A stretch of DNA of 64,000 bases from Apostichopus japonicus. Lineage: Eukaryota; Echinodermata; Holothuroidea; Aspidochirotida; Stichopodidae. The notes under the pieces are model-generated. The model saw only the letters and a list, made by a program, of their open reading frames with translations. It was not told where the DNA came from and did no database searches. This document shows positions 31,926 to 57,164 of the stretch, piece by piece. How positions within the stretch are numbered: position 1 is the first letter of the stretch; every line of letters starts with the position of its first letter. The position numbers and the translations under genes are program-made. The stretch lies in NCBI RefSeq assembly GCF_037975245.1, contig NC_092562.1, forward strand, positions 23,861,554-23,925,553. Reading direction: 5' to 3'.

Positions 31926-32235
31926 AATCATCTCTCGACCCGCCAACACCAAGTGTGTACTATGGCTCAGGAGTTCATGCGTTACGAGGCCATGTTCGAT
32001 TATAACGTGGACAAAAAGGGAGACATCGAAATTAAAGTCAAAGACATTTTGATCGTAAATACCAACATAGTCCGGTTTAGTTTTTTCAAGGGAACATTAG
32101 AGAAACCACTGGGTTGGTTACTAGGCAGAAATGAAAGAACTAACGAGGAGGGCACGTTTCCAGGCCCTTTTGTGAGGTTTATCGGCAAGTCGCCTCCGGT
32201 TCCCGTGCCACGTCCTCGCACAGTTGTCAGTCCAG
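31926..32235 (+). CDS. PIK3R1: p85 exon 1: 5' UTR end, start codon and SH3 domain
   Basis: The ATG at 31962 is preceded by 36 nt of UTR after a TTGCAG acceptor. It encodes residues 1-91 plus one base: AMFDY, the long n-Src/RT insert typical of p85 SH3, LGWL, and [16 protein letters not shown] proline stretch follows that could bind SH3 domains, including its own. Confidence 0.95.
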
Positions 32236-35200
32236 GTAAAATCAGGATTTTTTTCCAGCTCTTTTGGTCGGTGGAATGTTGAGATACTCACTATGATATC
32301 ACTAAGTACTAGACTACTCGTCTAGAATGAACTGGTAACGTGCTAACACTAACCTCTGACAGGGACCATTCATATCAGATACATGTATTAAGACAATACA
32401 CGGCAGTTTTTTTTTAAAAGCATGCATTTCATTGGTTGCTTCATAGCAACCAAAGTGTTTTTGTGAAAAACACAGTTTGTAACTCGATACTTAGTAGCCG
32501 GTAATACTGATACTGTCCAACTTTGGATCAGGTTCCATTAATTCCGACATTATCCGGCCATCATTACTTGGCAGCCTGCCAGCGTTACTGTGAATATGTC
32601 CTGCTCTTTCATGAGCTTGAAATGGGTGGTACATATATTCCAAAACACCATATTTTTTTTGTTCAAGCTCGGCACGGAAGCTCTTGAAGAATGCTTCGGA
32701 TGCAGTCAGTTAGCCGTGCTCTTGGCGCAAGGAACATGACTTTGAATTTCCTTATATTTAGCCCGACGAATAACTCAACGATAATTGCATCTGTTGAAAC
32801 TTTTGATTTCATCAATGATTACATAAGGCGGTACAAAAACGAAAGTACCGTTTGTTTGCAGTTTACACTTTCCACTAAATGCACCACTCTCTAAAATGAC
32901 TGATTGATGATTTTACAGTCATGATAGGCAGACTTTAAAAATAGGCTGCTTTTATTGATGAAACCAAAAGTTGTAGAAACCATATCATTGAAGTTTTAGA
33001 AAGTTTCACATAATCGATGAGAAAAATATGACCAGAGTGCACTCTATGTTAACTTATGTTTTATGTGTTTTCCATTAGATATTTTTGTGTATTAATTAAG
33101 TATACTTCAATTCTTCTAGTCTTAAAGACTTTCTTTCTGGTGTCCTCAAATTGATCTGTCTGTTCCAAATCCCCACCCCCCCCCAAATAAGTTTGTCAAT
33201 GTTGTGGTGTAGTATATAGCAGAATGAGTACTGTAGAAAGTAAACTGTCTCTTAAGTATCACTTCTGCTATCGATAAGAACATTAATAAAAAAAATTGCA
33301 TCCATGGTTTTGTTGCTCAGTCTCTCCAAAACTGATACTGAACATGAGAAAACTTGATTTATATTTATTTTATTTAATTACCAAATTTATATAGCACTCA
33401 TTTCATGCTTTTCAAAGCATGTTCAAAGCGCTTTACAATGACAACAAAATGACAAAACCCTTAAAATATGAATAAAATATAAATATGAAAATTGACACAG
33501 CTTAAATATTAATATATAAAAAAAATATATACGTACATATAAATGAAGGAATATATAATTTTAAAAATAAAATAGATTTACAGTGAAATTCCTAAGAACG
33601 AAAAAAAGTTAGTAAATTTAAGTAACAAAATAACAAGACTTCTTCAGAGCATTGGAGGTCCAAAACCTGGTAAGCTTTGGCATCTAAATTCCAAAAGTGC
33701 AGCCTCTCCAGTCATAGGCATCTAGGCATACACCAGTACTAGTTTATTACAGCTGTGTAGTTTGTGTTATCTTATTGTTAACTATATTCCATAACCTACT
33801 GTACTTTTGTTGTACAGTATGGAACATAAGAACTGCTGATTTTAAGATACAGGTAAAGGACTCAAATAAGTCACATACAGTATATCTCATTTCCATAATT
33901 TCATTTACACAGTTTTTAACTGCTTGTTTATATTTCATAGAAGTGTTTATATCTGTTTTTTTTTGTTTTGGTGATAGGTTAGTTAGGAGGGGAAGGAATA
34001 AATAATATACTATTTGATTCACCATCTCCTACCAGTTTTGCCTTGCATAGGTTCTAAACATTTCTCCAATGAAATGCACAATGCACCTCAAAACCCAACA
34101 GAACTCTACCCCCTAATCCACTTTGGATTGTTCGGTTGCACCAAAGTTACCTCGTCCGGGACCGTACTTTGAAACAACTCTTTGCAACTGACTGTGATAT
34201 AGTACTGTATCGGTATATCGTAAACAATATATGAATATTGTCTGACACTTGAATTAGCACAGTATCATATGTAGATGTGATGCATAGTTATTAGACAGTA
34301 CTGTACTATATATACTACACATTTATGTTTCAAACGTCACATAGTCCATTTTCCCCAAAATACTTCCTCTAACTCTGTCTAACCAGCAAAGGAACTAACT
34401 GCAGATAAGGATACACAAGGAAATCACTGTTTTGAATCGCCGATGGGCTTCCATGCTGTCATAACAATAAACATGTATACTCTACAGACTAGGTTGTAGT
34501 TCTAACTTCCTGTATATATATATATAGATATATGTATTATGTACAGTATTTCATATTGTATTATGTACAGTATATATATTATGAACAGTATTGCATATAT
34601 TGTATGATGTACAGTATATATGTACAGTATTGCATATTGTATTATGTACTATATTATATACAGTATTGCATATTGTATTATGTACAGTATATATATTATG
34701 AACAGTATTGCATATATTGTATGATGTACAGTATATATGTACAGTATTGCATATTGTATTATGTACTATATTATATACAGTATTGCATATTGTATTATGT
34801 ACAGTATATATATTATGAACAGTATTGCATATATTGTATGATGTACAGTATATATGTACAGTATTGCATATTGTACTATATTATGTACAGTATTGCATAT
34901 TGTATTATGTATGTCAGTATAATGTACAGTATTTCATATTGTATTATGTACAATATATATTATGTACAGTATTGCATATTGTAATATGTACAGTATATAT
35001 ATTATGTACAGTTATTGCATATTGTATTATGTACAGTATATGTACAGTATTGCATATTGTATTATGTACAGTACATATATGTATTATGTACAGTATTGCA
35101 TATGTTTAATTATGTACAGTATTGCATATTAGAGAATTGTGTCATATAATAATGTCATCTTGAGAAGAAAAGTGTTGAGTTCAACTTTTGTCTTTCTCTA

Positions 35201-38200
35201 GATGTAACAGTTATTAACTGAACATTATATTTAAGGGTGCAGATGTCATCGATCTACAGTACCTACAGTGTAGACGGGCTATTAATTACAATTGAATGAA
35301 AAGAAAGCAATGGTTACTTTACTTCAGGCAGCAATCTGGTTGAGCAATCTTCCATAAGAAAAAAAACCCTTATCAAACTATAGTATTATATATATAATTT
35401 AAATTTAATTCCCAAAGTTTCCCATTTTTTCCCAACTTTGCTCCTCTATGGGCTATTATTAACCAGATGGTATTTCTATGCAAACCTATTCTTGCTTTCC
35501 TCTTCTTTTTTTCCCTCTTTCCATCCTTTTCTTTAAGTACAACTTTATCTATTTTTTACTTTCAGAGGACATGATTTCCCTTGGTATTGTCACACCAAGC
35601 CTTTGCAAACATTGTAAGTATACGTGACTGAAACCAGCCAATTTGCCCCATATTCTGGTACATTTCTTGTGTGTGATAATCTCATTAAAAATCTGCTGAA
35701 ATTTTTCATAAAACTCTTTTTGTTTGCAAGATATATCACATTTGAGTTTTGATAAATCTGGGAAACTCATTGAATATGTGCAAACTCTGACGTGGAGTGT
35801 TGGGCTCATCAAAGTGTTTGCCCTTAATGAGTTAACCCCTAATTACAAAGCCAACATATATATATTATTTGAAAAATGTGATGTTTCGCCTTTCAAAGAA
35901 AACAATGAAATGTTTCAAACAATTGCCTAAGGCCACAGACACATGTGTCCAGTGTCCTTGAGACAAAGGTTGTGAAGACATAGGGATTACATAACAGAAG
36001 AGTAGGCAGTCGATCCCTGTACATCATCAATGTGCATAATTAGCTATGTTTATTAATATATTTAAACAAGGATTGAGAAAGGACTTGTAAACTAGTCAAT
36101 CTTTGATGGATTTTGATGGGAGTTGCAGCTATTTTTATGATTTCTAATGCCTATACAGGTAAGAGTGATTAGGAATATCATGTTCGTAAGTGTCCGTAGA
36201 CCTGTAAGATGATATCTTGCCAGGGTTATTACTGCAATGCTGTACTTAAACTGATAGTACGCTGAGTTGTGTTATCTGCACGAATGCAATATTGATGTAG
36301 TAGTACTGTACAGCTAAAGAAGTGTAAATCTTGCGAGCACAGAACCTGATGAATAATTTATTACCTGGAGGTGTTATAAATTTGATATATGAAGACATTT
36401 GATCAATTTATCTGAAATTAACTACATGAACTGTACTAAACATCTGCTCTTTATGGTTGTAAATTGTGACATGAACATTAGACTCATTAGGTCATTGTTA
36501 CCGCTGGTTCCTATATATATGGTTCTTGTTCATGTAGGTAGGTTTTATTTTGGGGGCTTGATTATCATATGTATATATAGAGCTGTTTACAATATGATCG
36601 GCATGAGAGTCAGTGCCATCAAAGCTGGTTGAAAAGTGTGGTCTTAAATTGAATGTCCCTGTATATTTTAATATCTTTCAATCTTGCCTCTTGTTCCTGA
36701 AGGTGATGATTTCATTTGGGGGACTGGTAGAGTGGCGTGGAGGTACAAAGACACTCCAGATCTCTTCCATAAGCAGTGTACACCGTTCGCTTCCACTTAT
36801 CCACGGAAGAAAGTCGATTCCAATTACGCACTCAGCCAAAGAGAAGCGGTAAGCGTACTGTTCATGTATGTGTATTCCTCAGGAGGGATATTTGAGCAGA
36901 TCTACGGTCGGTAATCTGTCTTGAGATTTAACGTTGGGGGTCTGAATATCCTGGGATCCAAGTTCCCTTCGTCGGTGCTCATGTGTGTACGTGGCATTAG
37001 TGTTTCTTGAAGGGCTCACATAGACAAGGGATACATGCAAGGTCACCTGTATGATATTTAGCTGACATGAGCAGTCACGTACCTTGAGCACTGTTAATGA
37101 CTCTTGCAGCTTTGACCTGCTGTCTGTGTACAGTGTATTGTCATGGTAACATACATTGTAAACAAAAATCTTTCGTACTAGTGTTACTGTACCCTGTTCC
37201 CTACAGCATGTAGTTTTAAGATGTAATTATAATAATAACATATTATGACATTTGTATAGCGCTTAATACAGCGTTTCAAAGCGCTCTACAAAGTAGGAAA
37301 GAGATAAAGGAAACCCAGGAAAAAAGAAGCTAGGAATCAAACAAATGTTTTAAGTTGTCTCTTGAAAATACAGAGGGAGGAAGAGTCACAAATGAAATGG
37401 CATGATCGCCATAACGATACTGATAATGTATACTGGTAACCACTAGGTAGCATCTTAAATGGTAGGCTTGACCCGTCCAATGGACACTTAGCTACTGTAT
37501 AACACACCACTGCAAGGTAACCCATCGTCTGTACGAAGAAAGCTAACAAAATTACATATTTATAAAAACTACACTCAGGTGAGTGGAAAATTGGGAAAGG
37601 TTATTCAAATTCGAATGAAGATAGTGCTGTAGCTTGAATTTATTGGGTCATATCCTCTCAAATTTGTATGTGTTGTGAGAAAGTTGATCAACATTGGACA
37701 GCTGCAGTATTTCCATTTTAGTAGGATAATATATTTGGAATGTTCAAAGGTTGCATGACTTCTTTGGGACAATCGTTTGCTTCACAAGAGTGGTCTCCCT
37801 ATAAACATGTGGTTGTCATTTGTGTACCGATGGCTGATTTTTGAGGACAGTCTAAATACTGGAAATGAATATATTAAAAGGAATAATTCTCACTGTATTA
37901 TGTCTCCCTTTCCTACCTCAATACGCTTGACATTACAAGGATGGTTCTATGTGATGTTGCATCATTTTGAGGATTTTGTTTCATTATGTCCTACTGTTAT
38001 CTGAGAGGATTCAAGTGTTAACATTTCTTGGTCAATGTCCCCCTTATAGCCTCTCGAACATTGGAATATAGAAGATGTACTTAATTGGATGGCGGTGACC
38101 AATCTGTACAGGTACGCAGAATTATTCAGGACCAAAGGAGTAGACGGAAACAAACTTGCAAATCTCAGCGAACAGGAGCTGGAGGTGAGTTTAAGTGATT

Positions 38201-41200
38201 TCTCAGATCTCATCATTTCAAATAGTTAGTCAATGTCAGATCTGCTTCGCTGCTTTTGTACATGGCTATCTTCGGTTAAAGAACACACATCTACTTGCCA
38301 TCATCTTTATCTCAGCACATTTCATCCCATTGTGGAGTGCAGGTTCATTCGATGTAGGAACCACTGTAGGGTACCGTTGGTGCTCTGGTGTTGGTTTTCC
38401 CATCTGAAATGGTGTTCCAAATTCTAGAAAAATCCCAAACGATGAATTTTTTCTTTAATTTGATAGCCCCCTACTAGAAATGAAATGTAAGTTACGAGCC
38501 ATTCTGCTTCTCTCACATACACATGTGGCAACTTAGCATCGTAAAGTAACTGGCCGATTACAACAACTAACACATTTCTTCCAATATTTTTACCGGTCTA
38601 GAACATGGGCTTGCTGGACGAGTTTCACAGAAAGTGTATTATCTACACAAGGGATGAGTTGAATGGACGAGGAAGCAGTGCATCCAATCATGTTAATCCA
38701 GATGCTTGTGAGTATGACTAGCATTATCTACACCAGGGATTTGTTAGAATGGATTAGGATATAGTGGATCCATTGGTATTAATTCAGATGCTTGTGAGTA
38801 TGACTAGCAGTATCTACACCAGAGATTAGTTAGAATGGATTAGGAAATAGTGGATCCAAAGGTATTAATCCTGATGTTTGTGAGTATGACTAGCATTATC
38901 TATACCAGGGATTAGTTAGAATGGATTAGGATATAGTGGATCCAAAGATATTAATCCAGATGCTTGTGAGTATGACTAGTATTATCTACACCAGGGATTT
39001 GTAAGAATGGATTAGGATATAGTGGATCCATTGGTATTAATCCAGATGTTTGTGAGTATGATTAGCATTATCTATACCAGGGATTAGTTAGAATGGATTA
39101 GGATATAGTGGATCCAAAGATATTAATCCAGATGCTTGTGAGTATGACAAGCATTATCTACACCAAGGATTAGTTAGAATGGATTAGGATATAGTGGATC
39201 CAAAGATATTAATCCAGATGCTTGTGAGTATGACAAGCATTATCTACACCAAGGATTAGTTAGAATGGATTAGGATATAGTGGATCCAAAGATATTAATC
39301 CAGATGCTTGTGAGTATGACTAGTATTATCTACACCAGGGATTTGTAAGAATGGATTAGGATATAGTGGATCCATTGGTATTAATCCAGATGTTTGTGAG
39401 TATGATTAGCATTATCTATACCAGGGATTAGTTAGAATGGATTAGGATATAGTGGATCCAAAGGTATTAATCCAGATGCTTGTGAGTATGACTGGCATTG
39501 CCTACACCAGGGATTAGTGGTATGAATTAGGATATATTGGATCCAAAGGTAGTAATCCAGATGATTGTGAGTATAACTAGCGTTATCTACACCAGGGATT
39601 CTAAGTTAGAATGGATTAGGATATTGTGGATCCAAAGGTATTAATCCAGATGCTTGTGAGTATGACTAGCAGTATCTACACCAGAGATTAGTTAGAATGG
39701 ATTAGGAAATAGTGGATCCAAAGGTATTAATCCAGATGTTTGTGAGTATGACTAGCATTATCTATACCAGGGATTAGTTAGAATGGATTAGGATATAGTG
39801 GATCCAAAGGTATTAATCCAGATGCTTGTGAGTATGACTGGCATTATCTACACCAGGGATTAGTTGTATGGATTAGGATGAAGTGGATCCAAAGGAATTA
39901 ATCAAGATGTTTGTGAGTATGACAAGCATTATCTACACCAGGGATTAGTTGTATGGATTAGGATTTAGTGGATCCAAAGGTATTAATCCAGATGTTTATG
40001 AGTATGACTAGCATTATCTACACCAGGGATTAGTTGTATGGATTAGGATGAAGTGGATCCAAAGGAATTAATGAAGATGTCTGTGAGTATGACTAGTATT
40101 ATCTATACCAGGGATTAGTTGTATGGATCAATGCATCCAACCATTTCAGACCAGTTTTGACAGCATTAATTTATATTATGTACATGAGTATAGAGAATCC
40201 TATGATTATTTTTTTGATTTGAACTTTTCTGAGAACATTTTACAAAGATTCTTGGAATTGAGATTACTGATTTCTTGCCTCCAACTCACAAAGTCCTTAA
40301 GTTTTAAATAAAACAAACCCTAAAATTGTTAAATTGTTCATGAATAAACTTGCAGTTATTTAAATTGATGACAGACAGAATGGTGAATCTAATATCAAAA
40401 CAACAGAAGTAGTGAAGACTTCCTCCACAAATGAAGATATTCAGTGAAATGATCGAGTCTCTCCTGTTTGTTTGCAGCCTTTCAACACACAGCTAAACAC
40501 CATAACTTGATGGAATACACATTCTCTAAGCTTACGTGGTGTGCGAAATGCCGAAGGTTTATGTATGGATTGGTGCAGCAGGGCCTCTACTGTAAAGGTA
40601 AAAACTTCCGAGTGTTTGAGCCTTCCTAGCGATGTGGAAAGGATGAAGCAACAGGGTTTTTTAGTTTCCATTTTACTGATGGAGATGTAACTTTCAATTA
40701 TATGATGAGGATTATTCGGCAAATAATTATAATTTTCAGTAATGTGACCATATGGCAATGAATGTTCAGAATCTCATGATATGACAAGGAAAATTCACTT
40801 ATATGACATTGAATATTCAGTTCATATGTACATGATGTTCTGTAATATGTAATCTAGTCAGTGTAGAATCGGAATTGTTGAAAATTCATTCATACAATCA
40901 TGTAATATTGATATGAAGAGACACTATAGAACCTTTATGTATGGTTTTGTCAAATTCTCTTTAGAAAGTCATTTAACAATTAATAATCTCAAAATAGTGC
41001 TGATGTATATCATGTTGTCCTTTACATTTTATTACAGTATTATTTAAATAACATATCCCAAGAAACCAAATTTTAGGCAGTACTAAAGTGTAACAATCCT
41101 AGTTCACTTTCCACTCTGTAATCATTGAATTTATTCCATAAACATGAATTGAAGCATGTTTTTCAGACCAAAACCTTTTCTCAGCTGGTGTTACACCCAG

Positions 41201-44200
41201 TTGCTAGACAGCAATCTATAGGTAGCTTACATTGTTGGTTTTATATGCAACCAAGGTAGGCTGACATATTTCTTGTGAGGAGTAATTATTAACCTTTTTT
41301 TTCATGATGCCTTTGTCTTGATTAACTTTGGTAGTTCCATCTTTGGTCATGCTTGCACAAGAGAACACTAAATGATCCAAGAAAAGTTGTATCAATACCC
41401 ATCCATGATTCTATCACCATGAAATGATTACAGACCATGAAATGATTACAGACCATGAAATGATTACAGACCATGAAATGATTACAGACCATGAAATGAT
41501 TACAGACCATGAAATGATTACAGACCATGAAATGATTACAGACCATGAAATGATTACAGACCATGAAATGATTACAGACCATGAAATGATTACAGACCAT
41601 GAAATGATTACAGACCATGAAATGATTACAGACCATGAAATGATTACAGACCATGAAATGTTTACAGACCATGAAATGATAACAGACAGAGAACAAATGA
41701 TCAACATCTTTTTATAACCTTGCTATAAAGCCTTCCCTGTATCATCTTCCTTACAGTGTGCAATTGTGCATTCCATCGTACTTGTGCTGCCACTGGACTA
41801 CCGAAATGCAATGCAAAAGCCATAAACGACAGTGGCATGAGAGAAAAAGGTAAGAACTAGAGTAGTTAGATGTATTAAGACTGCATCATATAGTAGCTAG
41901 TATCGATATAATTTACCTGATTTGTCACAGTGGAATAGAAATATCTGCAAAGAATATCTATGTCTCATTCCAATCCTTCCGTTCAACTCATTTATTCGCT
42001 TTTCATTTGTAGGTTTCACAGATTAACTTATTTAATCCTTCTTGCAACAAAACTAGCCAAAATTGTTGTCCTACCCTATACCTCACCCCTGACCTCCCTT
42101 TGGTAATATCTACCAAACCTTTTACTGCATAAGGGGACATGTTTACAGAGTTCTTTGCTCCTTGCTATCAAAGGAATGGATCTTTTTTCAGTAGAAGCTA
42201 AACTCGCTTTTGTGGTGAATAATCCAAAGGGTCTTTGGAGATTTGAATATGTATCACAATTTCATTTATATTGTTTCTTCTCCACATAAGATTCATTAGT
42301 TAATGAATTTTTAAATTTTTTTTGTGCTTTATATTTTTATTCTGTTTGGTTTTATGTTGTACATGTTAGACATTAGTTAAGTATTTGTGTACTAAATGCA
42401 TCATCCATTTATTAATTTATTTTTTCTGGTTTATTCAGCTGGAGTATTCTGTCAACCACTTGAAGAACAATTTCAAGTAGAAACAGAGAATGCCCCAGTG
42501 GTGATCGTAAAGTGTGTGGAAGCCATTGAAAGTAGAGGTATTTATTTGACATTTTGAGTGTTTCTGATCTTGGACCAAATATTAAACCTTTAAAAAGTGC
42601 TCACCTTTTAGAAAGAAGTCCAGACTCTGAGGAACAAAGTAATATAAATATGTTGGCTTGAAAAAGGTAAAACATAAAGTGTTATCCTTGTGTACTCCTT
42701 TATCACACAAAACAGTTCACCATGACAACCATTAATTCGTGACCCAGGCTCAAGGCATTTTGAACTTCATCAGTGAATTGCCCCCCTCGCATGCTAATAA
42801 TTGTCATCTTAACTTCAACAAGTTTTTTAGGTCCCACTGTCAAACTATTTCCCTAATCCTTAATCCCTCCCCCTCCTCCAATCCATTGTGGGCTGGAGAT
42901 ATCAGTAAGGAATCTGCACTACAGCCAATATATTGCACACAAAAAAAGTTTGAAAAGTGTCAACTAATCTTCAAGAAGCATTTATAAGTCCCATTGTCAA
43001 TATACCCCTACACATCATCCCACCCCCCCACACTAACACACAGTTTTGTGGCATTTAATTGTCCACATTAACCCTTCGTCAATTGATCTAGAGATGAGTT
43101 TGATAGTCAGAATGCCATCCAGGTAAGGATCTTTCTTGTAAGATAATATCTGATTTCACCTTCAGATACTCCTGTTAGAGGGCTCTATCGTACATCGGCG
43201 TCCACGATACCGGTAAATGAAATTAAAGAACAGTTCAACGAGAATCCCGACAAGGTGGACCTCTCAAAGTGTTCAGATGTCCACATTATCACAGGTGTCC
43301 TCAAGAGGTACCTGAGGGAGCTACCAAACCCAGTCATTTCTCTGGAGATGTATGACGAATTTCTTGCAGCTATAAGTAAGTTCATCTGACCTTCTGAATA
43401 CTCATGAATTGACCTCTTCACCATCAGCGAGTCAGTTGGGAAAATCCTCCAATGCTAACACCACTCTACGCTCTCCTCTGAGATCATGATTTAAAGCACT
43501 CGTACTGACAGTATGAACAGTTCCTCACCTGTACCTAATATTAGCATGATATTCATACTTCTCAAACTGCTGTACAGGTTTTTCTTCTGTGAAGCATGAG
43601 AACTATTTCTCCACAAAATGATTGGGTGTTATTTTTCTCTAAGTGTGTTTGAGGAAGCCTAAACTTCCCCTGGGTTGTCTGTTAGTCACAGCTATGTTAT
43701 TTATCATGTGTGGTCAGTTGTGGGTCATGTGTGGGTCAGTTATCATGTGTGGGCCAGTTATGCAAAATAGTGTCTGGAGTATTCCTAGGAGTGTTTTCTT
43801 CTCATCCTTCAAAATGTTGGCACCTTGGCCTATTGTTCTTTTTTCTTCACATATAAACCTAGATGAGTTCGGTCATTATTAAATTTAAATGTTCACTTGA
43901 ATTATGGTTACTGCTTTCACAATCAATACTAGATAGTCTGAATGTTCTTTCCCCATTTCTGAATCATTCCCACACAAAGCCAGATATAGTTTAGAATCTC
44001 TGTCTCTCTGTAAATAATAATAATAATAAAAATAATAATAATAAATAAGTCCTTAATATAGCGCCAAATACGAAAGGCCTCTAGGCTCTTTACAAAACCT
44101 AAAAAATATTAAGAAAATTAAAGACAGAGAAATCAAAAAAGAAATTTATGCAGCAAAGAACAAGAAAACTATCATCACCCCTACTTACACCCCTCCCCTT

Positions 44201-47200
44201 TCCATAATTTTTTCTCCAGGTGTCTCAAGAGAAGGGGACCGAGAAGCCCGGCTACTTGACTGCGTACAGAGGCTTCAGCATGCCCATCGGTCAACACTCT
44301 CTTACCTGATGGCTCATTTTGCTAGAATCTGTCAGAAGACAGACAATCAGATTCAGCCCAGACATCTCTGCTTTGTTTTCTGTCATATTCTTCTTAGACC
44401 GCCAAGAAATAAAATTTTGTGAGTAACGTTATACTGTATTAGTGTATTAGTAATGGTTATTGCATGGAACAATGCATTAAGCATTTACTAAATACAGGAG
44501 TGATGTGGTGGAGGGGGGGTTGGGGAGGATGGGGGGGAGAGGGTACATGGAATTTTCAGAGGTTAGGTGTTAGGAGTTAGGATAAGGATACTTGCTTCAT
44601 CATTTATCTTGTCACCTGACAATATCTTTTTGAATCTGTTTGGATAAGTGGTCATGAGAAATTGCCTCTACATTTTGTAATTGCAAACTAAATAATTGAT
44701 ACAACTTCCAGACAAGTTGCAATAATTTGGGAGTTTTTAACTCTTCCAAAATTACTTGCAAGACCTTAAAAGAGAATCTAATTTAGGCCGTCAAATTTCT
44801 CATTATGGAAAGTTTTGCTGTAAAATAAAGATAGTAAACCCACTGCTGCATTTATATAAAAATTTAAAATATTGAGATCATCTGGACGGACAAATATACT
44901 GTGTTGTGAAATTTGCCTTGCAGTTAAACGGCAGCCCCATGTGCTGGCCACTGTGCCTTAGTTACATCAATTTGGTTAGACCAAATCCTCCAGTTATCAG
45001 CACAACTACCTAATAGAGAAATTTGTGTGTTCAATGCATTTCGATGTAATGGCTTGTCTGTTTCATATGGAAACCGTCGATGTTTGCCGGTGTTAATATT
45101 CCGTGGGACAATTTTGGTGAACTGTATGGCACAGATCATACTTTCAGGTATCTTTCAATGGCAGTTAAGTTACAGCCCTCCTCTTACCAGACTTTTGAGA
45201 GACCATGTTATTTTGTTACTTTGTCACTTGAATGTACTTCTGAACTAGCTTGTAAGAAATATACAACATAATGATTGCAGTGTCTCGTGGGAGTTGTTGT
45301 CGTTAGCAACCAAAGTGACACCAAACCTTTTCCCGTTCCTCTCTGACAGACATGTCATTCACAATACAGACGCTCATCGGAAAATCGTACTAACTTTAAT
45401 CGAGAAGGGAGACTGGGGTGTGATTCAGCCCACACCGATACCTCCTGGTAAGAATAACTCGGTGGTCATCACCTCAACCTTTCAGGTCTCTCTTCACGAG
45501 AGCAGCTGGTTTGGTTTGTCTCGCCATCATGTACCCTCGAACAGAAATCAGTTCATGATGTACAGATTACAAATGGATTGATTTATTGATTGATTTATTC
45601 ATTTAAAGGAAGGTTTCCAGATATATCAATATTGTCAGCTTTCTTTGATCTGCTGATGTACCAGTTTACTCATACTTTCTAAAATTTTGATGGATTCATT
45701 TAATTAGACTAAAGAGTTTGTAGATATCAGAGATCCGCCATGATCTCCTGATGCACCAGTTTTATTCATAATATGGAATTGATTTATTTATTGCTTTTCT
45801 GCAGAAATTCCTGACAGAAATGCAGCGTACGCTCCGATCACTGGTGCGACCAACGGCGGGCCTAAAACCTTAGAGGAGGCAGAGTGGTACTGGGGGAGTA
45901 TATCAAGGTAAGTTGTTAACCTCAAGTCCTAAGAGTGGGCACCTTAGAAGGGCCATTCTCGGTCACGTGTGTGACGGAAAAATGGGGAGATTTGCACTTT
46001 ACCACTAAGTAACTACTTTTAGGTAAAGAAAGTTGGGTTGATTGTAGTACTTAAGTACGCACTAGGGGACTCTTTTACAAAACCATATATCTTAGCCAAA
46101 ATCAGAACATTCATGTGCTGGCAGAGGTCATAGAGGAGGCAGAGTGGTATTGGGGGAGTATATCAAGGTAAGTTATTCAAGTCCTTAGAAGGGGCACCTT
46201 AGAAGAGGCATCCTAGAATAGGGGGGCCTCAAACCTTAGAGGAGTCAGAGTGGTATAGAAGAGGCAGCAGGGAGTGGGGGGGGGGCAGGGAACGAGTTGA
46301 AGGAGACACACTAATCTCTTGTGGACATAGATGATAATTTTAGATGATAATCTCTAACAGCATTTTGTAATTAATTCATCATCTTCTGATTCTCATTTAT
46401 CTCCCTTCCCTCCATCTTTTTTCACTTGCACTTCGTAGCCACCAATATTTCACCTTCCTTGAATTTTGGGGGCTGGAAAGTTCTCGTAGAGCTGTACAGA
46501 CGTGACATTTAGGTACACTCACGATGTGTTTCTATCTCTCTTTTCTCGCTTTCCATCCCGTACATTCTTTCCTTCGATTCATTTTGCTTAGTCGCAAACA
46601 ATGAGAAATGTTACGTTTTCTCCACGTTTTAGGGAAGAAGTTAACGAGAAGCTCCGAGATATGCCCGATGGAACATTTCTGGTCAGAGATGCTGCTAACA
46701 AGTTCCAGTCTGGAGACTACACACTCACACTAAGGTAAATATCAGGTGGGATAGAGGGGGTGGGGGGATAAAGGGGGTGGGGGTGGGATAGAAGGGAGTG
46801 GGATGGGAGGGGGGATGTTCACACCCTCCCTAATTAAAGTCCCACGCCACAAAAAGAGGTTGTTATTAACCTTAAATTTTTCAATAACAGTGCTTGTTAC
46901 AACAAAGCTAATTTTGTTTCTAAGAGATTCCCATTTATAAATTAAAAAAATCTATCTAGCAAAGTCAATGGATATATTCCTTGGAAAGCCAGAATTTGCA
47001 AATACTTAAGATGAATTTTAAGTATTGTACAAGTTAGTTTTTCATCTTTGAGTATTTTTTTTCAAATCTTTTTCGGTGTGTTCTGTTTTATAGGAAAGGA
47101 GGGATCAACAAACTGATCAAGATTTACCATAAAATGGGGCATTATGGCTTCACAGAACCTTTGAAGTTTCATTCAGTGGTAGAATTGATACATCACTACA

Positions 47201-50200
47201 AGCATGCCTCCCTCAAACAGTACAACGAGAAGCTGGATGTCCGATTGCTGCATCCTGTCTCAAGGAAGGACCAGGTTAGTGGTTCATCATCCCTTCAAAT
47301 ATCCACAGCTTTACTGTAAAAGCATTATGGATAAATGATATACCCCATAATAATGATAGGGTTTCAATAGAATATTATCTACAGCAGCTGGAGGTAAGAT
47401 TACCACATCTAATCTCAAGGAAGGACCAGGTTAGTGGTTAATCCTCCCCTAAGATATCCACAGCGTTACCGTTAGAGGGGGGCATTATGGATATATGATA
47501 TACCCCATAATAAAGATAGGGTTTCTAGAGAATATTGTCTACAGAAGCTGGAGGTGAGATTACTGCATCCTGTCTCAAGGAAGGACCAGGTTAGTGGTTC
47601 ATCATCCCTTCAAATATCCACAGCTTTACTGTAAAAGCATTATGGATGATATACCCCATAATAAAGATAGGGTTTCTAGAGAATATTGTCTACAGAAACT
47701 GGAGGTAAAATTACCGCATCTAATCTCAAGGAAGGACCAGGTTAGTGGTTAATCCTCCCCTAAAATATCCACAGATTTACCGTTAAAGGGGGGCATTATG
47801 GATATATGATATACCCCATAATAAAGATAGGGTTTCTAGAGAATATTGTCTACAGAAGCTGGAGGTAAGATTACTGCATCTAATCTCAAGGAAAGACCAG
47901 GTTAGTGGTTCATCATCACAGATTTACCTTAAAAGGGGGCATTATGGCTATATGATATACAGGCATAAAGTGGTTGTTATATCATATTATAATTATCATT
48001 GTTGTTTTTATTATTATGATTATTATATGATATACCACGTAATAATGAAAGGGGTTTGTAGAGAATATCGCAGTTACTGTGACTGAAACGAACGAGACAT
48101 ACTTCTGTCCGTGATTCTAACATTTTCTTTCATTTTTACAGATGGATGTACCCGATGATATAGAAAGCCTGATAAAAACATTGCAAGACAAAAATAGCAA
48201 ATATCTGGAGAAAAACGCAGATTATGACAAACTCTACGAAGACCACAATAAATCACTGCAGGTGAGAGACCGTTTTGTTAATTAATTACTGAAGTCACCG
48301 GCAATTTGATGAGAACCAAATTTGTTTCAACAATTATTTAAACAGTGGCAATACTGACAGGAAAACTGTAAACAAATTTTACAGTGACAATTAAGAAACA
48401 TTTATTAGAGTATTATTGAAGAAACTTATTGACTGGAAACAAAACTTGAACCAGTCATCTCAGGATATACAAGATCTTGTACCTTTTCCAACTGAGCTTA
48501 ACTAGCTGTTACCTTGGTGGTGGGAGTTCCCTTGTAGCTGCTTGTTTGCTAGAAGGTGGCAGGCAGAATATAGTGCTTCCTTCTAAAATTAATGTCCAGC
48601 ATAGGTTAGCAAATGGACACTTTAACCTTTCTCTTGGCATGTGTGGTACATTGCCTTAAATAAAATAAGGGATTGGTTTTTCATCTCTATGTACCATGAA
48701 TGTTCTCTGTATGTCAAAGTACATTAATGAGTTCATATGAACGTAGAGCAAAATTTGCAGGGTATTGTTGTAAACTGTAGTTCTCTCAATTTGAAGTATA
48801 TTCCTCAGATAACATTTTGTTTGTATTTTCTATCACAATTAATTGCTCCATTGACTACTTACACACTGATTTTTAAACACTTTCCAACTTTGCCCCAGAG
48901 CGTATACAAATGTTTTTGAACTGTCATATCATAGTTACCCAGTAAGACTTTAGCCAGAAATGAGATATAGGGAAATTAATCCAGTTTGTGTAATGGGTAA
49001 ACATTTGCTGACTGGGAGGGGGGAGAGAGGTGGAGACAAGGCTCATAGTTTCAGTGATTTATATGACAGACGGTAGCATCATTTGAACTTTTCCGGGGGG
49101 GGGTGGGGACCAGGCTCTTATTTCTGTGATTCATATGCCAGACGGAAGCATTATTTGAAGCTCTTGTGGGGGGGGAGGCTATTTCATGCTCTTTAACATC
49201 AAAGGATTAAAAAAGTGATATGGATGATAAATAAACTGCATACGTGCAAAGAAAGTCACCTCTCAAAGTCTGTTGAGGCGGTCCTCAATCAGGGTAAGCC
49301 TCTGATGTGGATATACATTACTCGGTACTTACAAGAAGTACCCCGGTTAGACAACATGTTTTTTGATAAGGAAGAGCTAATCTATGCCACATAGCTTGGT
49401 GGAAAATGCCATCACAATATCTTGTTCCAAAATTAAGATATTTAATCTTTGTCTTGAAGGTGTAATTAATCTTTATGTATTTTTCCTAATATTTTTGGTT
49501 TATTTGACCTTTGACATGTGCAACAATTTGAGTTTCTTTGTTTTAGCGGTAGATATCCTCTTAAGTCAAGGCTTCATGAATATGCACTTTGTTTATCAAA
49601 GGTAATGATTTGTAGTACGTGATAAAGACATTTTCGATTACCTTGCTACGGTATGTTGCCAGAAACATTCATAAAAAAAAACATACCAAATGTTAAAGTT
49701 TATCGCTGGGATCACACATGTTATTAGGATGCGGTTACCACATATTACAAAATTGTTTTTTCTATTCCAATCATAGGAAATCAAAGTTAAGAGGCAGGCC
49801 CTGGTAGCTTTTGCAGAGACGGTCAAAGTTTTTGAAGAGCAAATTGAACTCCATATGAGGCATCATAACAATTGTCCAACACAAGAATCACAGCCGTAAG
49901 TGAAAAACTTCTGTCATGTTTGAATGTAGCTGTATGCACCGTACAGAGTAGGAAGGTAGTCTACGTTACCCCCCTCCTTCCCTTCTCTCTCTCCCTCTTC
50001 TCCCACCTACCCACCTCCCCACCCTTCCCAAAGGTGCATTTAGCTTGCTAATGCCCACAGAAGCTAGTTAACAGTAGTAGCTACTGACTAATCCTCAAAG
50101 TAAAAGCTAATCAACCCATTGGTCATTTTTACCTGAAATGACGCAGGTGTCTCAATAGGACCTAACACAGAAAGGCCGAGAAAAAGATCTGGTTCCATTT

Positions 50201-53200
50201 GGGGGATGTCAGGGCTTATAAGTGGTGTCAGTGGGTTGAGAGTTTGTCCATGTGTGGTGGGAGGTGAAATTTTGTCCTTTCCTTTTGTTGTCCAAATTCA
50301 AATTTTCCAAGGCTAAGAATAAAAGAGGGCTGTTAATGAGTGGCTTTGCAATACTTCTTTACTCCCTGGTTTATACCGCCTTTGCAACAACCCCTTCATC
50401 TTCATCGTAGACTACTACAAAACTTCCAACTGTTGAAGAATCGTCTGTTAGAGATCCAGGAGAGTCAACTAAGCCTAGAGGAAGAAATTCAGGAAGAAGT
50501 TGGCAGGAATCGAGAAAGGGACAGAGCAATGAACAGCATCAAACCACAGATAATGGAACTGAAGAAGGGTCGAGATGAAGTCATTCAGTAAGTGTGGTTA
50601 TCCATTCCCTGCCTCTTACTGGGGTACCATCTAATTGATAAACGTGACGCCATGACATGACTCTTGTGGGGGACATCAGATAAAATTGAATCCACTAGAC
50701 AGACAGATATTGATGGCATCAAAGAAGGACAAATGCAGTAGGGAAAATGGGGTTTGGAGAAATGTGGATAAGGTGACTCTTATTGAGTAAACAACCGCAT
50801 TGGTGACTCTTATTGGGTACACTACTGGATTAGGTGACTCTTAATGAGTACACTACTGGATTAGGTGACTCTTAATGAGTACACTACTGGATTAGGTGAA
50901 TCTTAATGAGTACACTACTGGATTAGATGACTCTTATATTGAGTACACTACTGGATTAGGTGACTCTTATTGAGTACACTACTGGATTAGGTGACTCTTA
51001 TTGAGTACACTACTGGATTAGGTGACTCATATTGAGTACACTACTGGATTAGGTGACTCTTAATGAGTACACTACTGGATTAGATGACTCTTATATTGAG
51101 TACACTACTGGATTAGGTGACTCTTATTGAGTACACTACTGGATTAGGTGACTCTTATTGAGTACACTACTGGATTAGGTGACTCTTATTGAGTACACTA
51201 CTGGATTAGGTGACTCTTATTGAGTACACTACTGGATTAGCTGACTCTTATTGAGTACACTACTGGATTAGGTGACTCTTATTGGGTACACTACTGGATT
51301 AGGTGACTCTTATTGAGTACACTACTGGATTAGGTGATTCTTATTGAGTACACTACTGGATAAGGTGACTCTTATTGAGTACATTACTGGATTAGGTGAC
51401 TCTTATTGAGTACACTACTGAACTAGGTGACTCTTATTGAGTACACTACTGGATTATGTGACTCTTATTGAGTACACTACTGGATTAGGTGACTCTTATT
51501 GAGTACACTACTGGATTATGTGACTCTTATTGAGTACACTACTGGATTAGATGACTCTTATTGGGTACACTACTGGATTAGGTGACTCTTATTGGGTACA
51601 CTACTGGATTAGTTGACTCTTATTGAGTACACTACTGGATTAGGTGACTCTTATTGAGTACATTACGGGATTAGGTGACTCTTATTGAGTACACTACTGG
51701 ATTAGGTGACTCTTATTGAGTACACTACTGGATTAGGTGACTCTTATTGAGTACACTACTGGATTAGGTGACTCTTATTGAGTACACTACTGGATTAGGT
51801 GACTCTTATTGAGTACACTACTGGATAAGGTGACTCTTATATTGAGTACACTACTGGATTAGGTGACTATTATTGAGTACATTACTGGATTAGGTGACTC
51901 TTATTGAGTACACTACTGGATTAGGTGACTCTTATTGAGTACACTACTGGATTAGGTGACTCTTATTGAGTACACTACTGGATTAGATGACTCTTATTGG
52001 GTACACTACTGGATTAGGTGACTCTTATTGGGTACACTACTGGATTAGTTGACTCTTATTGAGTACACTACTGGATTAGGTGACTCTTATTGAGTACATT
52101 ACGGGATTAGGTGACTCTTATTGAGTACACTACTGGATTAGGTGACTCTTATTGAGTACACTACTGGATTAGGTGACTCTTATTGAGTACACTACTGGAT
52201 TAGGTGACTCTTATTGAGTACACTACTGGATTAGGTGACTCTTATTGAGTACACTACTGGATTAGGTGACTCTTATTGAGTACACTACTGGATTAGGTGA
52301 CTCTTATTGAGTACACTACTGGATTAGGTGACTCTTATTGGGTAATACTGGATTACTTGACTCTTATTGAGTACATTACTGGATTAGTTGACTCTTATTG
52401 GGTACACTACTGGATTAGGTGACTCTTATTGAGTACACTACGGGATTAGGTGACTCTTATTGAGTACACTACTGGATTAGATGACTCTTATTGGGTACAC
52501 TACTGGATTATGTGACTCTTATTGGGTACACTACTGGATTAGGTGACTCTTATTGGGTACACTACTGGATTAGTTGACTCTTATTGAGTACATTACTGGA
52601 TTAGGTGACTCTTATTGAGTACACTACTGGATTAGGTGACTCTTATTGGGAGGGCGTTGTGGTCAAGTGGTTAAGGCAGTGGACTTGTGATCTAAGGATT
52701 ACAGGTTCGAGCCCTGGCCAGATCATTGCGTTGTGTCCTTGGGCAAGGCGCTTTATCTCCATTGCCTCTCTTCACCCAGGTGTATAAATGGGGACCTGCG
52801 AGGTAACTTGTAAATATAGTTGCGTGCGCCGGTTTGTGGCTGCACCCTATGGGAAGTCCCCCGGGGGACACGTGGTTGTGGTGCACTGTGGTGCCCCAGG
52901 AGAGATTGATTGAATTGTGCACACTTTGGTGTGTGGGTGTGACAAGTTACCAATGACCAGGGGTTAAGTTGTAAAGTCGTGTGAGGAGGCATTAGCCTCA
53001 TACAAGACTGTAAACCTTCAACTTCAACTTTAACTTTATTGAGTACACTACTGGATTAGGTGACTCTTATTGAGCACACTACTGGATTAGGTGACTCTTA
53101 TTGAGTACATTACTGGATTAGCTGACTCTTATTGAGTACACTATTGGATTAGGTGACTCTTATTGAGTACACTACTGGATTAGGTGACTCTTATTGAGTA

Positions 53201-56200
53201 CACTACTGGATTATGTGACTCTTATTGTGTACACTATTGGATTAGGTGACTATTATTGAGTACACTACGGGATTAGGTGACTCTGATTGAGTACACTACG
53301 GGATTAGGTGACTCTTATTGAGTACATTACTGGATTAGGTGACTCTTATTGAGTACACTACTGGATTAGGTGACTCTTATTGAGTACACTACTGGATTAG
53401 GTGATTCTTATTGAGTACACTACTGGATTAGGTGACTCTTATTGAGTACACTACGGGATTAGGTGACTCTTATTGAGCACACTACTGGATTAGGTGACTC
53501 TTATTGGGTACACTTCTGGATTAGGTGACTCTTATTGAGTACACTACTGGATTAGTTGACTCTTATTGAGTACACTACGGGATTAGGTGACTCTTATTGA
53601 GTACACTACTGGATTAGTTGACTCTTATTGAGTACACTACGGGATTAGGTGACTCTTATTGAGCACACTACTGGATTAGGTGACTCTTATTGAGTACACT
53701 ACTGGATTAGGTGACTCTTATTGGGTACACTACTGGATTAGTTGACTCTTATTGAGTACATTACTGGATTAGGTGACTCTTATTGGGTACATTACTGGAT
53801 TAGGTGACTCTTATTGAGTACACTACTGGATTATGTGACTCTTATTGAGTACACTACTGGATTATGTGACTCTTATTGAGTACACTACTGGATTAGGTGA
53901 CTCTTATTGAGTACACTACTGGATTAGGTGACTCTTATTGAGTACACTACTGGATTAGGTGACTCTTATTGAGTAAACTACTGGATTAGGTGACTCTTAT
54001 TGAGTACACTACTGGACAAGGTGACTCTTATTGAGTACACTACTGGATTAGGTGACTCTTATTAAGTACAAGTACTACTGGATTAGTTGACTCTTATTGA
54101 GTACACTACGGGATTAGGTGACTCTTATTGAGCACACTACTGGATTAGGTGACTCTTATTGAGTACACTACTGGACAAGGTGACTCTTATTGGGTACATT
54201 ACTGGATTAGGTGACTCTTATTGAGTACATTACTGGATTATGTGACTCTTATTGGGCACATTACTGGATTAGGTGACTCTTATTGAGCACACTATTCGAT
54301 TAGGTGACTCTTATTGAGTACACTACTGGATTATGTGACTCTTATTGAGTACACTACTGGATTAGGTGACTCTTATTGAGTACACTACTGGATTAGGTGA
54401 CTCTTATTGAGTACACTACGGGATTAGGTGACTCTTATTGAGCACACTACTGGATTAGGTGACTCTTATTGGGTACACTTCTGGATTAGGTGACTCTTAT
54501 TGAGTACACTACTGGATTAGGTGACTCTTATTGAGTACACTACTGGATTATGTGACTCTCATTGAGTACACTACTGGATTAGGTGACTCTTATTGAGTAC
54601 ACTACAGGATTAGGTGACTCTTATTGGGGGCATCAATGAAATGCATGTACTTATGCATTAGGTGGTTGTTATATCATACCTCTGATGATAAAAATCATTG
54701 TGAAGTAACACTAACTTTGATTCAATTTGCTAGTGATGATCCATTAGCTTATCACTTGCAAAATTTAAATTTCTAGTTGTGTCAATTTTAGTTCAAAGAG
54801 AATTCTGACAGTTTGATCAATCTTCTCTTCTTCCTCTACAGAATGCTGGTCGGCAAAGGTGTGAAGCAAGATCGGTTATACGACGACCTCAAGCGAGGAG
54901 AAATGTAAGTGTCAGGCATCCATTTCTTCTTCATAATAATAATAATAATAAAATCCAGCAGCGTTTGCTATCTCAGCTTTTTTGAACGGTTTGGGGTATC
55001 TGGGTGAAAACTAATATGGTGGCAGTACATCAGTCGTAACTTCTAACCTGGGTCTTCTCTCCACAGACGAGTGGATAGGTTGCGACCCGAGCCCCTCCCA
55101 CATAGCAACCAGGATCTGTGGTTCGTAGATGTCTCCCGCGAAGATGCAGAAAAGATGCTGAAAGGAAGAAAGAAGGGAACGTTTTTGATACGGAGCAGCA
55201 AAGCAGGTGGTTTTGCCTGCTCTGTGGTGTAAGTAACCCCTGCATGTAAATCTCTGCCTTCTCCCTCTCTCTCTCTTCTGGAGTCCCTCTAGGAGGGGGG
55301 TACCCAATTCCATGCAGCTGACTTTTTCCTTTTGACATCCACCTTCTAGCTTTCTTGCAGCATTTGCAAAATTAGCCACAAATAAAAAATGTGCTTTTTA
55401 AGAAAATTCAGTCAAGATGTAGCCTGGGCACGAAATCCAAAGCAGTCTGATCCACGCTAAACCCTCAGTCGGTGCCCTTGCATTAAGACTGTGACTGTGC
55501 GATTATGACAGTGTGTTATCTCAAGTGAGGTATATAAATCATGATACCCTCTGAAAGGGTGTATGTAGATCTGTATATACTACTGCAAATGATCTCAGCG
55601 TAAGGTCAGTCTGCAATCTACTGCGCAATGGTCGGTGTATCTGATCTGAAAGGAACAGAATACTACACACGACGATCTTAGCCAAGATGCCAAGAATAAA
55701 ATGCAAGCTTGGAATTTATCGTCTCAAGAAGATGAAAGATGTACGATGATGATGGTTGATACTTTCTATAAACTAATATGTAGATACCTATAACATTAGA
55801 TTACAAATATCATGCTCAAAGATGGCCTCTGCAATTGTTACAGCCAACTAAAGCTATAGAGCTGTATAGCTGTATAGCTATATATATATAGTATATATAT
55901 ATATATATATATATACTACAGCTATATATATACTATATATACTATAGCTATATATATACTATATATACTATAGCTATATATACTATATATATACTACAGC
56001 TTTATATATATCTATATATATATATATATATATATAGATATATATACTATAGCTATAGCTATGCAGCCAACTATAGCTATAGAGAAGCCTTATGCGGTCT
56101 TTCTAATGCCCTTTCTCCAAATTTCAGAAACTCCCCGCGTCGTGTAAAACCTGCATTCAACTCATTGGAGCCAGTGACTGAGCGACCCCAAAGGTTACAT

Positions 56201-57164: not shown

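Follow-up and report, generated by a model that had tools for sequence, protein, structure and literature searches.

The vertebrate regulatory subunits of class IA PI3K, p85alpha and p85beta (PIK3R1 and PIK3R2), share an SH3 domain, a proline-rich stretch, a RhoGAP (BH) domain, and nSH2, iSH2 and cSH2 domains with the protein described here, but, unlike it, have no C1A, SAM or C1B between SH3 and RhoGAP. In the accessible parts of the source reports, human p85alpha forms dimers through SH3-PR1 and BH-BH contacts (PMC7458397), and other dimer modes of human p85 are supported as well (PMC9127371). The accessible parts of PMC9127371 contain nothing on a C1/SAM layout and those of PMC8797975 nothing on a C1A-SAM-C1B layout, while those of PMC3024228, presumably Brown and Auger 2011, deal with the kinases and leave p85 domains aside. 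Chimaerins (CHN1 and beta2-chimaerin, PDB 1xa6) likewise carry a C1 domain directly ahead of RhoGAP.

Parts of a richer p85 layout have been described outside vertebrates. PI3Kp85alpha of the shrimp Penaeus vannamei is reported to have two C1 domains and one SAM domain that are missing in human p85; in the accessible part of that report, these domains are called 'unique structural features' of possible benefit to a shrimp virus, and the protein carrying them is predominantly cytoplasmic (PMC12817958, J Virol 2025). A survey by Philippon et al. 2015 records, in its accessible part, p85 C1 domains in Mollusca, Cnidaria and Ichthyosporea, and p85 SAM domains in Mollusca, Arthropoda and Choanoflagellida; section 11 of the same survey describes neither a joint two-C1 layout nor a vertebrate loss (PMC4617754). 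The protein records of homologues already hold precomputed Pfam domains. The domains were partly known before, scattered in databases and in print, and the interest lies in the evolutionary reading; no statement of a joint C1A-SAM-C1B layout across animals, or of its loss in vertebrates, was found in the literature searched.

Gene model and domain order of the sea cucumber p85

The window analysed here, a 64,000-nucleotide stretch of Apostichopus japonicus genomic DNA, contains a gene that we assign with near certainty to the class IA PI3K regulatory subunits (p85 / PIK3R), with the order SH3-C1A-SAM-C1B-RhoGAP-nSH2-iSH2-cSH2. The gene was spliced by hand on the plus strand by reading three frames, requiring an AG and a GT at every junction and checking phases, which placed 20 coding exons between 31962 and 57164 (Table 1). 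All introns are GT-AG (19/19), and the joined frame is open from the ATG at 31962 to the TGA at 57164, encoding a protein of 924 aa with the first stop at codon 925. The model agrees with the 20 phase-consistent exons claimed in a first-pass annotation of the same DNA; the start given there, 31926, is the splice acceptor of the ATG-bearing exon, but not the coding start itself. No gene was recognised among the open frames of at least 75 aa read in the window outside the p85 gene.

Table 1. Coding exons of the p85 gene, in window positions
Feature	Position	Strand	Basis
Exon 1, coding part: SH3 and first proline-rich stretch, aa 1-91	31962..32235	+	splice model; p85alpha SH3 alignment, 53.2 bits
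Exon 2: first part of C1A (C14, C17)	35566..35613	+	frame reading, junctions, orthologues
Exon 3: remaining degenerate C1A (H39, C42 kept; C31, C34, C50 lost)	36703..36848	+	splice model; 100% to P0002
Exon 4: first part of SAM	38050..38184	+	splice model; Pfam SAM_1 160-216; 100% to P0002
Exon 5: last SAM helix and linker; 3' end and donor repeated in 86-bp tandem array	38602..38707	+	splice model; repeat search
Exon 6: first part of C1B	40478..40597	+	splice model; Pfam C1_1 245-295
Exon 7: second part of C1B	41757..41849	+	splice model; Pfam
Exon 8: RhoGAP (BH) start	42439..42537	+	splice model; Pfam
Exon 9: RhoGAP, Arg finger R349, K387, R391	43166..43375	+	splice model; catalytic-position comparison; Pfam
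Exon 10: RhoGAP, Ile467 at fourth catalytic position (FCHILLRP)	44220..44418	+	splice model; catalytic-position comparison
Exon 11: C-terminal end of RhoGAP and linker	45350..45447	+	splice model; human p85alpha alignment
Exon 12: linker and nSH2 start	45805..45907	+	splice model; Pfam
Exon 13: nSH2 with FLVR arginine	46633..46734	+	splice model; Pfam
Exon 14: nSH2 end; 3' end repeated in array 47228-47917	47094..47274	+	splice model; repeat search
Exon 15: iSH2 coiled coil, first part; missing in public A. japonicus model P0002	48142..48261	+	splice model
Exon 16: iSH2	49777..49895	+	splice model
Exon 17: iSH2, MNSIKP stretch	50411..50587	+	splice model; p85alpha alignment
Exon 18: iSH2 end	54842..54904	+	splice model
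Exon 19: cSH2 start	55067..55228	+	splice model; Pfam
Exon 20: cSH2 end and stop codon	56945..57164	+	splice model

A phmmer search against the PDB, using the model without exons 2 and 3 as query, matched p85alpha (5m6u_B) with an E value of 1.4e-157. Specifically, Pfam places SAM_1 at residues 160-216 (E 4.8e-10), RhoGAP at 327-472 (E 7.2e-36) and, between the two SH2 domains, iSH2 at 636-792 (PF16454, E 2.4e-36). The SH3 domain scores 13.0 bits, below the Pfam cut-off of 22.9, yet it aligns to the p85alpha SH3 domain with 53.2 bits. The FLVR arginine can be read in both SH2 domains (FLVRDA in nSH2, FLIRSS in cSH2). Furthermore, the segment REIDKRMNSIKP of human p85alpha iSH2 is aligned with a 12-residue segment of the window protein in which the p110-contact residues, which we take to be D560 and N564 of p85alpha, are present.

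Pfam and the p85alpha alignment agree with the order SH3, SAM, C1, RhoGAP, nSH2, iSH2, cSH2 proposed in the first-pass annotation. The SAM domain that it had placed at 157-225 is recovered, as is the C1 domain at 245-294 (Pfam C1_1, 245-295), here called C1B, in which all eight zinc ligands from H245 to C294 and every spacing (H-12-C-2-C-13-C-2-C-4-H-2-C-7-C) are kept. Both inserted domains are real, but a second C1 (C1A), at about 92-142 between SH3 and SAM and encoded by exons 2 and 3, had been overlooked. With these exons C1_1 scores 52.7 bits in two stretches, and without them 36.4 bits in one; a Pfam search of the translated exons, a check suggested at the first pass, gave SAM, two C1 stretches, RhoGAP, two SH2 domains and iSH2.

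An NCBI protein from A. japonicus, P0002, is 100% identical to the window gene over six exon pieces. In P0002, repeat-derived sequence of the 47.3-47.9 kb array (47331-47740) replaces the conserved iSH2 exon 15 (48142-48261), and tblastn finds no counterpart in the window for its first 115 residues, so that SH3 and exon 2 are missing; P0002 is probably a faulty gene model.

Two tandem arrays begin inside coding exons and copy the exon 3' end together with its 5' splice site, one starting from exon 5 (38638-40128, 86 bp x 17.4) and the other from exon 14 (47228-47917, 160 bp x 4.4). Within 38-48.3 kb, and with at most 8 edits, there are 7 additional matches to the exon-5 junction and 3 to the exon-14 junction. 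Most of intron 17-18 consists of a 31-bp repeat, which forms two long blocks (60.7 and 51.2 copies, 50765-54626), and the intron that splits C1B contains an 18-bp repeat (41416-41687, 15.1 copies, 98% matches) in one open frame (DHEMIT).

Spread of the layout and the vertebrate branch

With the window protein as query, 7991 proteins were scored and 1562 of them were homologues at E <= 1e-3, the best 120 being listed; the queries themselves carry SAM and C1, so the match lists favour proteins with those domains. C1A-SAM-C1B ahead of RhoGAP is found in echinoderms, hemichordates, amphioxus, arthropods, molluscs and sponges, and orthologues with an identical order in so many phyla exclude a chance origin. 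A survey for SAM and C1 had been proposed in the first-pass annotation; run for echinoderms, hemichordates, amphioxus and molluscs, it finds both ahead of RhoGAP.

Three protein searches and the window together gave 135 p85 rows, of which 116 contain the C1B motif. The 19 rows without it comprise 15 vertebrates (15/15 in the set) and four non-vertebrates; the missing motif in every vertebrate row, together with the p85alpha alignment, bears out the earlier statement that vertebrate p85 passes directly from SH3 to RhoGAP. As read from their sequences, none of the four non-vertebrate rows cleanly matches the vertebrate condition. The Amphimedon protein (P0131) starts inside RhoGAP, an Ephydatia protein (P0132) ends abruptly inside C1B, and a spider isoform (P0134) and a tardigrade protein (P0136) have decayed cysteine-rich stretches at the place of C1B, indicating that decay also occurred outside vertebrates.

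The C1A motif is present in 71/135 rows, many of the rest being N-terminally shorter models. Amphioxus C1A has a longer spacing (a pair of C1 stretches is recognised by Pfam in P0013). The order is complete in the sponge Corticium candelabrum, SAM and both C1 stretches included; Oscarella (P0126), Dysidea (P0127), P0125 and P0128 have both C1A and C1B motifs, and Ephydatia P0129 has the C1B motif without the C1A motif. SH3 is annotated by Pfam in some of the p85 rows. No cnidarian is among the 16 proteins of a hemichordate-region search, the best 120 of 304 matches to a sponge query comprise sponges and few bilaterians but no cnidarian p85, and no tunicate p85 is among the matches listed. A tunicate protein with C1 and RhoGAP, P0135, is not a p85 but chimaerin-type and was excluded from the p85 counts: it has one SH2 before C1 and no iSH2 match, whereas in the window p85 the SH2 domains follow RhoGAP and SAM precedes C1B.

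A maximum-likelihood tree was calculated from RhoGAP to cSH2, with the inserted domains excluded from the alignment, for 47 rows picked from the 135 (39 with the C1A-SAM-C1B cassette and 8 vertebrates without it; P0131, P0132, P0134 and P0136 left out). Rooted on sponge rows P0123, P0125, P0126 and P0127, the tree explains presence and absence of the cassette by one change, on the vertebrate branch. Vertebrates form one clade (100/100) inside the rest, amphioxus adjoins at only 80/84, and a single sponge row sits on a long branch. The layout is very probably ancestral in animals and was lost in vertebrates; on a plain reading, the loss would lie on the vertebrate branch, or in vertebrates and tunicates together.

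The first-pass annotation had offered an ancestral layout and a lineage-specific gain as alternatives, and it is the former that stands. An insertion of SAM and C1 by echinoderms into a vertebrate-like p85 would fit the direct SH3-RhoGAP order of p85alpha and the 15 vertebrate rows, but it is scarcely credible and was rejected, given that arthropods, molluscs, amphioxus, hemichordates and sponges share the cassette order and that the sponge-rooted tree has its single change on the vertebrate branch. It is also highly improbable that the cassette is a splicing artefact, with exons 2-7 belonging to another gene or to rare isoforms. These exons amount to 648 nt and are flanked by phase 1 at either end, so the frame survives when they are skipped, and N-terminally shorter models are common among the homologues listed; however, the frame is kept in 11/21 contiguous skips within exons 2-7, so there is nothing special in this, and the idea of a specially skippable cassette was dropped. 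Furthermore, two proteins from close relatives, P0001 (921 aa; contig of 4734 bases) and P0003 (911 aa; contig of 3831 bases), have SH3, C1A, SAM, C1B, RhoGAP and both SH2 domains in one frame. Their contigs are too short for a gene of about 25 kb with introns and are thus probably transcripts, and on this intron-less full order the artefact was rejected. In these close relatives, the same order counters a direct joining of exons 1-3 to exon 8, the pattern that the first-pass annotation had named as contrary to its claim. The ancestral layout with a vertebrate loss is the reading followed below.

Zinc ligands of C1A

By sequence, the closest solved chain to the window C1A is the first C1 of PKC beta (E 2.8e-5), which is also the closest to the intact hemichordate C1A (E 2.4e-13). 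The p85 C1A differs from the first C1 of conventional PKC in having no Gln27, which is the sorting rule itself, and in the sea cucumbers also by the absence of 4/8 zinc ligands. Specifically, the window C1A keeps C14, C17, H39 and C42, but H1, C31, C34 and C50 are replaced, leaving the eight-ligand set incomplete. We take the kept and the lost ligands to be the two separate zinc sites of PKC C1 structures, in which case exactly one zinc site is left; cucumber C1A thus appears to retain a single site. No statement of a one-zinc C1A was found in the literature searched.

The 71 C1A rows were collected by a pattern that requires the four kept ligands. Six of them have an acidic residue at H1 and, in the same rows, a non-Cys residue at C31, with C50 also lost in all six; three come from sea cucumbers (window, P0001, P0003) and three from urchins (P0007-P0009). 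C34 is replaced by Thr in 3/71 rows, those of the cucumbers, so that three ligands are gone in urchins and four in cucumbers. One further non-His row, P0121, has the His one residue earlier. All eight C1A ligands are complete in sea stars (P0005, P0006, P0012), a brittle star (P0004) and crinoids (P0010, P0011). Urchins and cucumbers do not come together in the gene tree, which has another grouping (86/75), so a single shared origin of their ligand losses can be put forward only tentatively. Identity among the three cucumber rows is 67-76% in C1A, 78-94% in SAM, 88-90% in C1B and 42-79% in the linkers, a pattern that suggests some, but not strong, constraint on C1A.

The C1B-RhoGAP block and candidate functions of the cassette

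Consistent with the chimaerin likeness noted at the first pass, C1 is followed by RhoGAP, and the closest PDB entry to the sponge C1B-RhoGAP block is beta2-chimaerin (1xa6). For the cucumber orthologue, CHN1 is the first structural row, tied with other RhoGAPs, and 1xa6 superposed over C1 and RhoGAP of the orthologue model gives an rmsd of 6.2; this structural comparison covers mainly RhoGAP and nSH2, with C1A and SAM matched by sequence. In a C1B-RhoGAP tree, the p85s lie on one side (85/91) and chimaerin outside. Fungal LIM-C1-RhoGAP proteins (P0137, P0139, P0144, P0149, P0200) also pair C1 with RhoGAP, indicating that the pairing predates animals or had more than one origin.

The tip of the window C1B has Leu11, Tyr22, Gly23, Leu24 and Gln27; Pro11, Trp22, Gly23 and Gln27 are presumably the residues of a canonical DAG binder. 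Among the 116 C1B rows, collected by a pattern that required Gly23 and four ligands, position 11 is Pro in only 5, position 22 is Arg in 48 and Trp in 9, and Gln27, which is also the criterion separating C1B from C1A, is present in 116/116. In the window RhoGAP, the Arg finger R349, K387 and R391 are present, with Ile467 at the fourth position; we take the positions of an active RhoGAP to be the Arg finger, a Lys, a second Arg and an Asn (Thr in chimaerins). Across 136 RhoGAP rows, which include P0135, the fourth position is Asn in none (0/136) and Ile in 93, and the Arg finger is kept in 87. Sponge rows P0123 and P0129 combine Pro11 and Trp22 in C1B with R, K, R and Thr in RhoGAP, where they share FGPT with chimaerins; Oscarella P0126 has Leu11, and in Dysidea P0127 the last two GAP positions are Gln and Ser.

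Among the p85 RhoGAP rows (P0001-P0136), sea cucumbers, urchins and most molluscs retain the Arg finger, which is replaced by His, Ser, Cys, Tyr or Ala in the listed beetles, bees and wasps. A planthopper (P0038), a cricket (P0046), stick insects (P0054, P0055, P0073) and a mayfly (P0068) keep it.

An explanation that blends architecture, ancestry and mechanism is, as a whole, reasonably likely, and its mechanistic part is advanced here only tentatively. The nSH2-iSH2-cSH2 region would hold and restrain p110, as human p85 does. The N-terminal cassette may be a docking platform in which SAM binds to itself or to partners, a role filled in human p85alpha by SH3-PR1 and BH-BH contacts. C1A could serve as a structural finger, and C1B, packed on RhoGAP as in chimaerins, could form with it one GTPase- and lipid-facing block, which in the sea cucumber would more likely act weakly or by binding alone than as a DAG-gated GAP. 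The closest solved chains to SAM include liprin-beta-1, SARM1, SHANK2 and DGK-delta (weak matches, best E 2e-6), whose SAM domains have scaffold or oligomer roles. An AF2 model of the orthologue P0001 has a mean pLDDT of 88.0, with C1A blocks at 91-94 and five predicted SAM helices, but its pTM is only 0.53, so the model does not establish domain packing. The extra SH2 reported in p85 of Cnidaria and Ichthyosporea counts against the blended explanation (PMC4617754, accessible part).

A protein that works chimaerin-style, with C1B binding diacylglycerol, bringing p110 to DAG-rich membranes and opening an active RhoGAP, would draw on the Gly23, Leu24, Gln27 and complete zinc ligands of the window C1B, on the Arg finger, Lys and second Arg of its RhoGAP, and on the chimaerin-like residues of P0123 and P0129. 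It is nevertheless unlikely in view of the rarity of Pro11, the excess of Arg over Trp at position 22, the Leu11 and Tyr22 of the window itself and the fourth GAP position; moreover, the sponges disagree, as P0126 and P0127 illustrate, and shrimp p85alpha is mainly cytoplasmic in the accessible part of its report (PMC12817958). Nearer to an even chance is a scaffold that makes protein contacts only, in which C1B is a rigid collar of RhoGAP, GTPases are bound and barely stimulated, and SAM recruits partners, for example SAM proteins. The replacement of Asn/Thr by Ile at the fourth GAP position fits such a scaffold, as do the closest chains of SAM and the very low GAP activity of human p85alpha given in the accessible part of PMC7458397, but an Arg finger in the window and in 87/136 rows is beyond the drift expected of a dead site in those lineages.

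A further reading can be proposed, although it is doubtful: the first animal p85 might have been a lipid-gated Rho GTPase switch of chimaerin type, joined to a PI3K adaptor, so that DAG, Rho GTPases and phosphotyrosine were all answered by a single protein. Some sponges (Corticium, Ephydatia) would then retain Pro11 and Trp22 in C1B and the four chimaerin residues in RhoGAP, bilaterians would have eroded the C1 tip and the GAP site, urchins and cucumbers would have come to a one-zinc C1A, and vertebrates would have dropped the cassette.

An ancestral layout alters the reading of the Penaeus vannamei report, which held the domains to be unique, whereas here the layout is traced to sponges, with the loss on the vertebrate branch (the shrimp being compared by description). 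Within echinoderms, the stepwise loss of C1A ligands offers a natural test, on a small scale, of whether one zinc can support a C1 fold. Class I PI3K structures and drug models take the p85 layout of vertebrates as their basis. Should this layout be a reduced one, three features of human p85 can be interpreted as remnants after cassette loss, namely the low GAP activity of its BH domain, the weak BH-BH contact and SH3-PR1 dimerization, and invertebrate or sponge p85 would be where the original purpose of the BH domain could be sought.
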